NCBI GenBank assembly: GCA_030054035.1
Contig: JASGCS010000001.1
Coordinates: 406,280-470,279 of the forward strand
Direction: 5' to 3'
From: Candidatus Methylacidiphilales bacterium
GTDB lineage: Bacteria > Pseudomonadota > Gammaproteobacteria > JASGCS01
Length of the DNA stretch: 64,000 nucleotides
Positions 34,520 to 45,921 of this stretch are shown piece after piece. How positions within the stretch are numbered: position 1 is the stretch's first letter; every line of letters begins with the position of its first letter. The position numbers and the translations under genes are program-made. The notes below the pieces were generated by a model that was not told the DNA's origin, did not search any database, and was given only the letters and a program-made list of their open reading frames with translations.

Positions 34520-36316
34520 TTATACTTTTTTTGATTCTTGAACGGCTAGATGTAGCTCCCTTATTTTTCTATTTGCCAAAGAACTTGGAGCATCGGTTAG
34601 CAAACAGACACCATTTTGATTTTTTGGAAATGCGATTAATTCTCGTATTGAATTTGCGCCACTAAGCAACATATATAAGCGATCAAGCCCCAAGGCTAAT
34701 CCACCATGAGGAGGAGCTCCAAAAGAAAGTGCGTTTAATAAAAATTGGAACTTACCTCTAATTTCTTCCTCTGATAAACCTAATATTGTAAAAAGTTTAT
34801 GTTGCTCAGAGACCAGATGATTTCTTATTGAACCACCACCTAACTCAACGCCATTTAACACTAAATCAAATGCATGAGATAATAAAGTCGAAGGGTCTCC
34901 TTTAAAATCTATTAATGATTCAGTGCACGCAGTAAATGGGTGATGCATAGCAACATAGCGTTTTTCTAATTCATCATACTCAACCAGTGGGAAATTAACC
35001 ACCCAACAAAATGAGAGCGCATCTGGATCGATAAGTTTTAAACTGTCGGCAATTGCACCTCTAAGCATGTGCATCGTTACATTAACTAATTTTGCATCTC
35101 CCGCACCAAAAAAAACCAAGTCACCGGTTTGCGCCGAACACGCATCTAAGATGGTATTGGTCAACTCCTCACCTAAAAACTTAATAATTGGTGATTGTAA
35201 CCCTGCTATTCCCACCTGTCGATCGGTGCATTTTATATAAGCCAACCCACCAGCTCCTTGTGCTTGGACCATTTCTGTATAGGTATCAATCTCCGAGCGA
35301 CTAAGCCTAACCGCTCCCTGGGGAACTCTCAAGGCTACCACACGAGAATTTTTTGCATTTGCACAGGTAGAAAAAATTTTAAATCCACAATTTTTAACCA
35401 GATTATCAATATCTACCAAATGTAATGGGTTTCTTAAATCTGGTCTATCTATTCCATATTTTCGCATTGATTCTTGATAGGTAATATGGGGAATAGGTTT
35501 TGTAAATTTTTTATTACCAAATCTTTCAAATAGATTAGTTACTACCAATTCAGTAATCTCCATTATTTCTTTTTGATCACAAAATGAGAGCTCAAGATCA
35601 AGTTGAGTAAACTCAGGCTGTCTATCACTTCTTAAATCTTCATCTCTAAAACAACGAGCTATTTGATAATAACGATTTAGCCCACCCACCATGAGTAGCT
35701 GTTTAAACAATTGGGGTGACTGTGGTAGTGCGTAGAACATTCCACGATGTAGTCTGCTCGGAACAACATAATCCCTAGCGCCTTCAGGTGTTTCTCTAGT
35801 TAGCATTGGAGTTTCCACTTCGCAAAAATCATGTTCTTGCATCATAGTCCTAATAAACATATTCGCCTGCGCTCTAAGCCTGAGCCTATTTTGCATATCA
35901 TTTCGGCGAATATCTAGATATCTAAATCGAAGTCTGGTTTCCTCATTAACTATAGATCCATCTAATGGAAATGGCAACACCTGAGATTGATTTAACACCT
36001 CACATTCAGACACCACTATCTCAATATGCCCGGTATTAAGATTGTCATTTTTCGTTCCTTCTGGACGATTTCTAATAACCCCAGTCACTGAAATTACCCA
36101 CTCAGATCGCAGCGACTGTCCGAGTCCATGAAGTGAGGTATTATCTGGATTAAAAACTATTTGTACTATGCCACTATGATCGCGCAGGTCAATAAATACA
36201 ATTCCGCCATGATCTCGCCAATGTTCAACCCATCCACTTACCTTTACTAAAGTCCCTATCTGGACTTTTCCACATTCTAAAGTAATATGGGTTCTAAATT
36301 TATTTTCCACGATCAA
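34520..36316 (-). CDS. aspS: Aspartyl-tRNA synthetase
   Basis: Class IIb synthetase, 598 residues, bacterial type with an insertion domain. Seen: OB-fold with GWVEHWRDHGGIVFIDLRDH, motif 2 region YQIARCFRDEDLRSDRQPEF, QSPQLFKQ, the GAD insertion (about residues 290-410) and motif 3 GLALGLDRLYMLL near the end. Whether it is discriminating (Asp only) or also charges Asn-tRNA cannot be judged by eye. It overlaps fmdB by 4 nt and yebC begins 3 nt after its stop. Confidence 0.98.
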   Translation of the reverse strand: MIVENKFRTHITLECGKVQIGTLVKVSGWVEHWRDHGGIVFIDLRDHSGIVQIVFNPDNTSLHGLGQSLRSEWVISVTGVIRNRPEGTKNDNLNTGHIEIVVSECEVLNQSQVLPFPLDGSIVNEETRLRFRYLDIRRNDMQNRLRLRAQANMFIRTMMQEHDFCEVETPMLTRETPEGARDYVVPSRLHRGMFYALPQSPQLFKQLLMVGGLNRYYQIARCFRDEDLRSDRQPEFTQLDLELSFCDQKEIMEITELVVTNLFERFGNKKFTKPIPHITYQESMRKYGIDRPDLRNPLHLVDIDNLVKNCGFKIFSTCANAKNSRVVALRVPQGAVRLSRSEIDTYTEMVQAQGAGGLAYIKCTDRQVGIAGLQSPIIKFLGEELTNTILDACSAQTGDLVFFGAGDAKLVNVTMHMLRGAIADSLKLIDPDALSFCWVVNFPLVEYDELEKRYVAMHHPFTACTESLIDFKGDPSTLLSHAFDLVLNGVELGGGSIRNHLVSEQHKLFTILGLSEEEIRGKFQFLLNALSFGAPPHGGLALGLDRLYMLLSGANSIRELIAFPKNQNGVCLLTDAPSSLANRKIRELHLAVQESKKV

Positions 36317-36711
36317 CCTGACCCGTCTTTTGGCTTGGTAGTTTCTTTTTTAATTTCTTGTTTGGCTTCTTTTTTAACCTCTTGCTTAGACTCCTTAGCC
36401 TCTTGTTTGGCCTCTTGCTTAGACTCCTTAGCCTCTTGCTTAACTTCTTTAGTATCTTGCTTAGCTTCTTGCTTGACCTCTTTTTTGGGGTCTTCTTTTG
36501 TGCTATTATTTGTACTATTAGAAGTAGGGGTGGGATTTTTGAAATCTGTTACATACCAACCAGTCCCTTTTAAATGAAATTTTGGTTTGGAAAGCTGCCT
36601 TACTAGCGTATCTAATCCGCAATTTGAACAGTGTGGTGGTTTTAGTTCATATTTAATAAGCAACTCCTCGCGATGATCGCAGTTAGAGCAAGAAAATGTG
36701 TAAATTGGCAT
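36313..36711 (-). CDS. FmdB-family zinc ribbon protein with Lys/Glu-rich repeat tail
   Basis: 132 residues. Residues 1-45 are the FmdB-type zinc ribbon (MPIYTFSCSNC, then HCSNCG; two C-x-x-C pairs). After GTGWYVTDF and an Asn/Thr/Ser linker, residues about 72-128 form a highly charged tail built of 11-residue units such as KESKQEAKQEA, a LEA-like or amphipathic hendecad pattern. Family function is unclear (regulatory zinc-ribbon). In beta/gamma genomes fmdB commonly precedes aspS, often with a DUF502 gene between; that one is absent here. Confidence 0.88.
   Translation of the reverse strand: MPIYTFSCSNCDHREELLIKYELKPPHCSNCGLDTLVRQLSKPKFHLKGTGWYVTDFKNPTPTSNSTNNSTKEDPKKEVKQEAKQDTKEVKQEAKESKQEAKQEAKESKQEVKKEAKQEIKKETTKPKDGSG
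36378..36455. repeat. 33-bp tandem repeat inside the fmdB-like gene
   Basis: A run of 27 identical bases centred on CTTAGACTCCTTAGCC recurs with a 33-bp (11-codon) offset, once near 36380 and once near 36413, with more diverged units on both sides. It encodes the KES/KQEA units and is a candidate for slippage-driven length variation. Confidence 0.7.
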
Positions 36712-43916: not shown

Positions 43917-45287
43917 ATGAAAAAAATATACCTTGCTGAGAATGATCTTCCACGAAGTTGGTATAACATTCTTGCGGATTTAGAAAATAAGCCATTGCCC
44001 CCACTTCACCCAGTTTCCAAGCTACCAATCGGCCCTGCAGATTTGTCGCCTATTTTCCCTATGGAGCTTATAAAACAAGAAGTAAGTTCAGAGCCCTTTA
44101 TTGAAATACCTGACGAGGTAGTTAATAAATATTTAATTTGGAGACCTAGCCCACTTATAAGAGCTACAGAATTTGAAAAAGCCCTCGGTGGGTCAGTTTC
44201 CATTTATTATAAATATGAAGGTACAAGTCCCGCAGGGTCGCATAAACCTAATACTGCATTGGCTCAAGCATACTATAACAAAAAAGAAGGAGTTAAAAAA
44301 TTAACCACCGAAACCGGTGCGGGACAATGGGGTACGGCACTTTCTTTCGCCTGCCAACAATTTGGATTAGCGTGTGAAGTATACATGGTGAAAATCAGCT
44401 TTGATCAAAAACCTTATAGAAAAATATTGATGAATTCTTTTGGAGCAAAAGTAATCGCCTCACCAAGTAGAGACACACAGGCAGGAAAAAAACAGCTTGA
44501 ACTAAACCCTCAATCAAATGGTAGTCTTGGAATTGCAATTTCAGAAGCAATAGAAATGGCTGCCCAAGATGAGCACACAAAATACTCACTTGGATCTGTA
44601 CTTAATCATGTCTTAATGCATCAAACCATAATAGGCCAAGAGGCAAAAAAACAACTTGAAATCGTAGGTGAATATCCTGATATCATTATCGCTCCTCTGG
44701 GAGGAGGTTCTAATTTTGCTGGAATCTGTTTTCCTTTCTTAAGAGATGTCATAAAAAGAAATAAAAAAACCAGATGTATTGCCGTTGAACCAGCCTCTTG
44801 TCCTAAGCTAACTAAAGGAAAATTTCTATATGATTTTGGTGATACTGCAGGCTACACTCCGTTATTACCCATGTACACGCTTGGGCATAATTTTAATCCC
44901 GCCGCCATACATGCAGGTGGTTTGCGTTATCATGGAGCAAGTGTGATCATAAGCCAACTACTTAAAGACAAACTTATAGAGGCCTCGGCTATTCAACAAC
45001 TAGAGTGTTTTAAGGCTGGGTTATTATTTTCACAGACCGAAGGTATACTTCCCGCACCAGAAGCTAGTCATGCTATCGCTCAAGTAATTAGAGAAGCAAA
45101 ACAAGCACAGCTTGAGGGCAAGAAAAAAACCATACTTTTTAATTTATGTGGACATGGGTATCTAGATCTACAGGCGTATCAAGACTTTTTTGAAAATAAA
45201 TTAACTGATCATGAGCTTTCCGAAGCTGATTTAGTTAATACTATTAAAGAACTAGAGCAACTACAACCAAAAACAATAGGAGTATAA
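43917..45287 (+). CDS. trpB2: Tryptophan synthase beta-like PLP enzyme, TrpB2 type
   Basis: 456-residue PLP enzyme of the TrpB2 class (distinct from the usual TrpB1). Seen: the TrpB2-specific N-terminus DLPRSWYNILADL and HPVSKLPIGP, IWRPSPLIRA, the PLP lysine in GSHKPNTALAQAYY, TTETGAGQWGTALSFA, PLGGGSNFAG (phosphate loop), YTLGHNFNPAAIHAGGLRYH and CGHGYLDLQAY. No trpA is near. TrpB2 enzymes condense indole and serine and may salvage indole or act on O-phosphoserine. The class is most common in archaea and some bacteria. Ends 1 nt before the peroxiredoxin ATG. Confidence 0.93.
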   Translation: MKKIYLAENDLPRSWYNILADLENKPLPPLHPVSKLPIGPADLSPIFPMELIKQEVSSEPFIEIPDEVVNKYLIWRPSPLIRATEFEKALGGSVSIYYKYEGTSPAGSHKPNTALAQAYYNKKEGVKKLTTETGAGQWGTALSFACQQFGLACEVYMVKISFDQKPYRKILMNSFGAKVIASPSRDTQAGKKQLELNPQSNGSLGIAISEAIEMAAQDEHTKYSLGSVLNHVLMHQTIIGQEAKKQLEIVGEYPDIIIAPLGGGSNFAGICFPFLRDVIKRNKKTRCIAVEPASCPKLTKGKFLYDFGDTAGYTPLLPMYTLGHNFNPAAIHAGGLRYHGASVIISQLLKDKLIEASAIQQLECFKAGLLFSQTEGILPAPEASHAIAQVIREAKQAQLEGKKKTILFNLCGHGYLDLQAYQDFFENKLTDHELSEADLVNTIKELEQLQPKTIGV

Positions 45288-45288
45288 A

Positions 45289-45921
45289 ATGGCAGTAAAA
45301 AAGAAAATCGCGACTAAGAAAAAAATACTTGCTAAAAAGAAAATTGTTACTAAAAAGAAAGCAACATCAAAGAATAAAGTTGTAGCAAAGAAGAAAACTG
45401 TTACTAAAAAGAAAATCGCGACTAAGAAAAAAACTCTAAGCACGGTTAGCCAGCAACCATCTAACCCAATTCCAAGCATCGGAAACCCCGCACCAGACTT
45501 TGAGTTTATTCATCAAGGCCGAAGCGAGAATATCGGTGATTTCGCAGGAATTATTGTCCTCTATTTTTACCCAAAAGATGACACCCCAGGTTGTACTATT
45601 GAGGCAAATGGCTTTAATAAAATCGTTTCACAGTTAGCTGACCGGCAAGCAATAGTTGTTGGGGTATCTCCAGACTCAGCTGTTTCTCACGCAAAGTTCA
45701 AAGATAAATACAGCTTGTCTTTTTACCTAGTCCCAGACACCGATCAGACAGTCTCCAAAAAATATGGTTGCTGGGTAGAAAAGTCTATGTATGGTAAAAG
45801 TTATATGGGTGTAAGTAGGACTACTTTCATTATTAAGAATGGCATTATCACACATGTGTTCACAAAAGTTTCACCTAACGAACACGCGGAAGAAGTACTC
45901 TCTGCGGTGAACTCATTATAA
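45289..45921 (+). CDS. bcp: Peroxiredoxin (BCP/PrxQ type) with lysine-rich H1-like N-terminal tail
   Basis: 210 residues. Residues about 3-49 are repeats such as KKKIATKKK and AKKKIVTKKK, almost only K, A, T, V, I; this resembles histone H1/AlgP-type DNA-binding tails. Residues about 60-210 are a complete Prx domain: GNPAPDFEF, YFYPKDDTPGCTIEANGF (peroxidatic Cys about residue 102), SPDSAVSHAKF, PDTDQTVSKKYG, EKSMYGKSYMGVSRTTFII. The alpha2 resolving Cys five residues on is Asn; the only other Cys is at about 161. GGAG at 45279-45282 is a good ribosome-binding site. Likely DNA-associated peroxide defence, by inference. Confidence 0.9.
   Translation: MAVKKKIATKKKILAKKKIVTKKKATSKNKVVAKKKTVTKKKIATKKKTLSTVSQQPSNPIPSIGNPAPDFEFIHQGRSENIGDFAGIIVLYFYPKDDTPGCTIEANGFNKIVSQLADRQAIVVGVSPDSAVSHAKFKDKYSLSFYLVPDTDQTVSKKYGCWVEKSMYGKSYMGVSRTTFIIKNGIITHVFTKVSPNEHAEEVLSAVNSL
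45298..45433. repeat. Degenerate repeats encoding the lysine tail of the peroxiredoxin
   Basis: A block of 28 identical bases (core GAAAATCGCGACTAAG) occurs at 45298-45325 and again at 45406-45433, with diverged copies between. This suggests internal duplication of an original K/A/T unit. Confidence 0.7.

Follow-up and report, generated by a model that had tools for sequence, protein, structure and literature searches.

Why slow peroxiredoxins of the PrxQ/BCP type are kept alongside much faster peroxidases is a standing question. In Dps proteins with a Lys-rich N-terminal tail, the tail is joined to a peroxide-detoxifying core and DNA is protected. Among BCP-type enzymes, PfnPrx (merozoite capping protein 1) of Plasmodium has a Lys-rich C-terminal region, and yeast Dot5 carries a signal that targets it to the nucleus. 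Two reports describe PfnPrx (PF10_0268) as a nuclear 1-Cys peroxiredoxin of the BCP subfamily that is present in chromatin-associated fractions (PMC3337327, PMC4053738). DNA-binding and chromosome proteins are overrepresented among prokaryotic proteins with Lys-rich low-complexity regions (PMC6821194). A partial coverage of the literature yielded no published description of Lys-tailed bacterial peroxiredoxins.

In this study, a gene for a PrxQ with a Lys-rich N-terminal tail was analyzed in a stretch of 64,000 nucleotides from a Candidatus Methylacidiphilales bacterium (the window). The protein is neither a new family nor a new role for the superfamily. A first-pass annotation of the same DNA had proposed that a chromosome-tethered peroxidase protecting DNA would be a new role, which does not hold, since PfnPrx is already a chromatin-associated 1-Cys peroxiredoxin of the BCP type, and the yeast protein (Dot5; PDB entry 2a4v) is nuclear. 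What is new is that bacterial PrxQ have acquired Lys-rich tails widely and repeatedly, in a family-specific manner. The features of the locus are as follows.

43917..45287, + strand: upstream gene for a TrpB-like PLP enzyme, its stop codon lying 1 nt ahead of the PrxQ ATG
45278..45282, + strand: AGGAG ribosome-binding site, within the 3' end of the trpB-like gene and 6 nt ahead of the PrxQ ATG (sequence)
45289..45921, + strand: whole gene for a PrxQ/BCP-type peroxiredoxin with a Lys-rich N-terminal tail, 210 aa (sequence, Pfam match)
45298..45441, + strand: Lys-rich tail, residues 4-51, eight 18-bp/6-residue units KKKxxx (sequence; AlphaFold2 [AF2] pLDDT 52-58)
45442..45477, + strand: linker TVSQQPSNPIPS, residues 52-63 (sequence; precedes the Pfam match starting at residue 64)
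45478..45912, + strand: AhpC-TSA/PrxQ domain, residues 64-208 (Pfam, AF2 pLDDT 92-98, PDB fold neighbours BCP/PrxQ)
45592..45594, + strand: peroxidatic Cys102 in PKDDTPGCT (invariant in a 78-row alignment)
45607..45609, + strand: Asn107 at the position of the alpha2 resolving cysteine, CP+5 (Cys here in 126 of 206 relatives, absent in 80)
45769..45771, + strand: Cys161, the sole other Cys, beside Trp162 (one other relative of the 206, L030, has Cys here)

The gene runs from an ATG at 45289 to a stop codon at 45919-45921 in the open-reading-frame read-out, and the coordinates and length given in the first-pass annotation are exact. Because the trpB-like stop codon lies 1 nt before this ATG and the AGGAG motif lies 6 nt upstream of it, the two genes are probably co-transcribed as operon partners and there is good support for codon 1 as the start. 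Initiation near residue 60, which the annotation had named as a result that would remove the tail, is very unlikely given the ribosome-binding site at codon 1 and a codon scan that found no ATG, GTG or TTG between codons 1 and 143, the only start-like codons there being the rare ATT, ATC and ATA; codon 143, the next ATG/GTG/TTG codon, is already within the peroxiredoxin domain. A frameshift, which it had also raised, need not be invoked. An artefact of either kind was rejected: the reading frame is intact, and tails lie in frame on other PrxQ as well. At its stop codon the gene overlaps that of a convergent downstream gene by 6 nt (45916-45921).

Pfam, the NCBIfam ranking and PDB comparisons of sequence and of fold all place the protein among the peroxiredoxins of the PrxQ/BCP type. 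Residues 64-189 match the AhpC-TSA model PF00578 (E = 1.3e-28), NF006960 and NF053650 head the NCBIfam ranking, the best PDB sequence matches are BCP, with 36-40% identity to solved PrxQ, and BCP/PrxQ structures are the first PDB fold matches of the AF2 model. The NF006960 score is 117.3 bits against a cut-off of 140 bits, a threshold that identifies an equivalog rather than delimiting the PrxQ subfamily; falling below the NCBIfam PrxQ equivalog cut-offs, the protein is a divergent member. Pro95, Thr99, Gly101, Cys102 and Arg177 are invariant in the alignment, so that the PxxxTxxC active site and the conserved Arg are present. These elements and the fold are shared with Escherichia coli BCP, Xanthomonas PrxQ, Burkholderia 5enu and Sulfolobus Bcp1, whereas none of these has the Lys-rich N-terminal tail and the window protein has no alpha2 or alpha3 resolving cysteine (CR). 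In a tree of PrxQ domains the window protein (L001) groups with two Verrucomicrobiota sequences (L051 and L058; SH-aLRT 90), apart from the PrxQ of its own class; its branch is long (1.01), and acquisition by horizontal transfer is possible. The second peroxiredoxin of the genome (L002, G000:C1:64285-64656, - strand) is more distant and tail-less, with an 82-residue C-terminal extension resembling the Prx6 type.

The described systems differ from this protein in several respects. PfnPrx is likewise of the BCP type and is listed as 1-Cys, a mode that is probable here; however, PfnPrx is eukaryotic, is associated with chromatin rather than a nucleoid, and has a tail of unrelated sequence. The yeast nuclear thiol peroxidase 2a4v (Dot5) is a BCP-type fold neighbour of the AF2 model with 27% identity; it is nuclear by name, its solved form is a truncated mutant, and it is distant in sequence. 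Dps resembles the window protein in combining a Lys-rich tail with a peroxide-removing core, whereas its fold is ferritin-like and its chemistry unrelated, so that the likeness is one of working only; the window protein belongs to AhpC-TSA and not to the ferritin-like family PF00210.

The cysteine anatomy in the first-pass annotation is borne out, with Cys102 as the peroxidatic cysteine (CP), Asn107 at the alpha2 CR position and Cys161 as the only other cysteine. Its further suggestions, that the missing CR is unusual and that it is tied to the tail, were not sustained: absence of the alpha2 CR from 80 of the 206 sampled PrxQ makes this state ordinary, and a link between the tail and loss of the CR was rejected, since the alpha2 CR is kept in 16 of the 19 PrxQ with tails. 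A tail without a CR is the rarer combination, found in the window protein and in that of another genome of the class (G238). The alpha3 CR of Xanthomonas XcPrxQ, Cys84 (located from a C84S entry in the alignment), corresponds to Lys138. With both the alpha2 and alpha3 CR missing, the enzyme probably operates in a 1-Cys mode, in which the sulfenic acid would be reduced by an external thiol. Cys161 might instead be a non-canonical CR, in which case the enzyme would be an atypical 2-Cys peroxiredoxin, as Cys161 is the sole cysteine besides Cys102 and adjoins the conserved Trp162. This is distinctly unlikely: position 161 is usually Val or Ala among the 206 distinct relatives, only one of which has Cys there, the known alternative CR positions (CP+5 and alpha3) are empty, and CP is the only cysteine in 18 of the 206.

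The first-pass annotation described the N-terminus as K/A/T repeats; it is correct that Lys-rich repeats are present, but they are in fact Lys triplets spaced by three I/V/A/T/L/S residues, with no Arg. The units are KKKIAT, KKKILA, KKKIVT, KKKATS, KNKVVA, KKKTVT, KKKIAT and KKKTLS. Residues 1-50 include 23 Lys and no Arg, Asp or Glu, and 23 of 24 Lys are in phase with the hexapeptide period, a value reached in 0 of 200,000 random reorderings of these residues. Among the 47-residue stretches of the window the tail ranks first in Lys with 23 (next best 16), and the 1.7-Mb genome has no second KKKx3KKKx3KKK array when 0-1 mismatch is allowed. The calculated pI is 9.9 for the full protein and a near-neutral 6.0 without the first 50 residues. 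No secondary structure is predicted for the tail in the AF2 model, and the tail matches no Pfam model, including histone H1-like, above chance. Its composition (Lys, Ala, Thr and Val, free of acidic residues) is that of histone H1-like and AlgP-type Lys-rich bacterial tails; unlike Hc1, Hc2 and AlgP, it is fused to an enzyme and has a triplet-Lys hexapeptide repeat without a Pfam match.

To establish how widely such tails occur, the PrxQ domain alone, a query blind to tails, was used to collect 80 loci from public genomes, and a strict cut of at least 8 Lys in 30 residues with at most one acidic residue was applied. Five of the 80 loci pass this cut, and one further PrxQ (L033) is short-tailed; the sources are two Planctomycetota, a Leptospirales MAG, an unassigned bin, Chrysopegis, in which the extension is short (25 residues), and Archangium, in which the tail is C-terminal. 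Overall, Lys-rich PrxQ tails were found in Myxococcota, Planctomycetota, Spirochaetota, Kryptonia, the unassigned bin and one genome of the same class as the window, so that the domain-architecture search proposed in the first-pass annotation finds the window tail not to be unique. In Planctomycetota, four of the 30 best PrxQ loci pass the strict cut; further tailed examples came from loci picked for long frames and form a biased set. Tails are present on 22 of the 30 best PrxQ matches in Myxococcota, 21 of them C-terminal and some longer than 150 residues. The 22 tails in these Myxococcota loci (L263-L292) are Lys/Ala/Pro-rich, of a PAKKA type, and are a phylum-wide trait. For the class to which the window belongs, 56 PrxQ loci were examined and none is tailed; the only case noticed there besides the window is that of G238 (L149), with an N-terminal tail of 60-odd residues containing 'KKKSRSKKSAAKK...'. 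Plasmid records contain relatives, including Turneriella bcp, none of which is tailed.

The tails are recurrent and specific to the family, being present on PrxQ and absent from AhpC of the same phyla. The Lys-rich cut is passed by four among 2,928 further frames of these loci; among the control frames, that in L062 was rejected because it reads a Lys/Glu-rich protein out of frame. None of 60 AhpC loci, drawn from Planctomycetota and Myxococcota, has a tail at the same cut, and the difference within Myxococcota (22/30 PrxQ against 0/30 AhpC) gives a Fisher p of 8e-10, a value that ignores the shared ancestry of the sequences. The tree of PrxQ domains, 205 in number, requires at least 17 changes of tail state (nine for N-terminal and eight for C-terminal tails), an approximate count, as it is a quick tree with many open forks in which gains and losses are indistinguishable. 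The occurrence of unlike tail sequences at both ends and in several phyla points to convergence on a Lys-rich composition, and tails at either end with this number of changes would fit selection on charge rather than on sequence or on a signal.

This recurrence suggests that the enzyme is held on DNA or on another negatively charged surface. On balance, we infer that the tail tethers a cytoplasmic 1-Cys PrxQ by charge to nucleic acid, most likely the nucleoid, such that peroxide is removed near DNA. Cys102 would reduce peroxides and its sulfenic acid would be reduced by the external thiol, while the disordered tail, with a charge of about +23, would hold the enzyme non-specifically on the nucleic acid; peroxide, including lipid or DNA-derived hydroperoxides, would then be cleared where Fenton damage would strike DNA. 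The nucleoid is favoured by the Lys composition, the position-independence of the tails, the survey of prokaryotic Lys-rich regions (PMC6821194) and the precedents of PfnPrx and 2a4v. No Dps was found in the genome, which is 96% complete, the only PF00210 match being rubrerythrin-like. Against the tether, the tail is encoded by a tandem array with an 18-bp unit, and such arrays can grow by neutral expansion; moreover, few tails occur in the class of the window.

What counts against a tether specific to DNA is that RNA, ribosomes, polyphosphate and anionic membranes are likewise ligands of poly-Lys. The tail may bind one of the other polyanions (RNA or ribosomes, or polyphosphate), which would localize PrxQ or tune its activity; composition alone cannot select among polyanions, and Lys-rich disordered peptides have been reported to bind RNA and occur in ribosomal proteins (PMC6821194). 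However, the enrichment of Lys-rich regions in the same survey is strongest for DNA and chromosome terms, and the precedent of a chromatin-bound BCP points to DNA, making this reading unlikely. Docking on anionic membrane surfaces, where lipid hydroperoxides would be reduced, appears quite improbable: although organic and fatty-acid hydroperoxides are among the substrates of PrxQ/BCP enzymes, neither an amphipathic pattern nor an acylation motif can be made out in the tail, its period is exactly six with Lys triplets, and AF2 predicts disorder.

The tail could also be a functionless, neutral expansion of an 18-bp minisatellite. A tandem array, the differences in tail sequence among lineages and the lack of tails on most PrxQ of the class are what such an origin would leave. 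However, the Lys codons appear to be kept while the spacers drift: between units, Lys codons show 26 synonymous and 7 non-synonymous differences, all 7 from one Asn codon, against 10 and 64 for spacer codons. These pairwise counts are non-independent and so an indication rather than a test that the Lys triplets are under selection. In addition, PrxQ has gained tails many times, N-terminally as well as C-terminally, whereas AhpC and the neighbouring genes have not, and a neutral origin is most unlikely.

Returning to the nucleoid tether, a broader and more tentative proposal is that bacterial PrxQ may be a recurrent nucleoid-guarding peroxidase, independently fused at either end to histone-H1-like tails, in Myxococcota almost as a rule, and thus a counterpart of the eukaryotic chromatin-bound BCP and of tailed Dps. 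Were the tails to bind DNA, many bacteria would have a spatially organized oxidant defence, with a peroxidase on its most vulnerable client. The specificity for PrxQ and not AhpC, together with repeated gain, constitutes a natural experiment, and a comparison of tailed and untailed PrxQ from related myxobacteria would test whether PrxQ adds location rather than rate.

Two other low-complexity sequences were observed in the genome. An FmdB-like zinc-ribbon protein in the window (36313-36711, - strand) has a C-terminal (KQEAKQE/SKQEAK)n repeat, a second low-complexity tail that is charge-balanced. A 23-aa Lys-rich open reading frame, MATAKKKAVKKTAKKKTTAKKKK (L119, 1513-1584, - strand; G000 contig C2, near 150,645-150,689), has the same composition as the PrxQ tail and no Pfam match; with an AAAGG ribosome-binding site and a GGGACATA/TATGTCCC-T7 terminator, it is possibly a free-standing histone-H1-like peptide, below the usual gene-length cut-offs.
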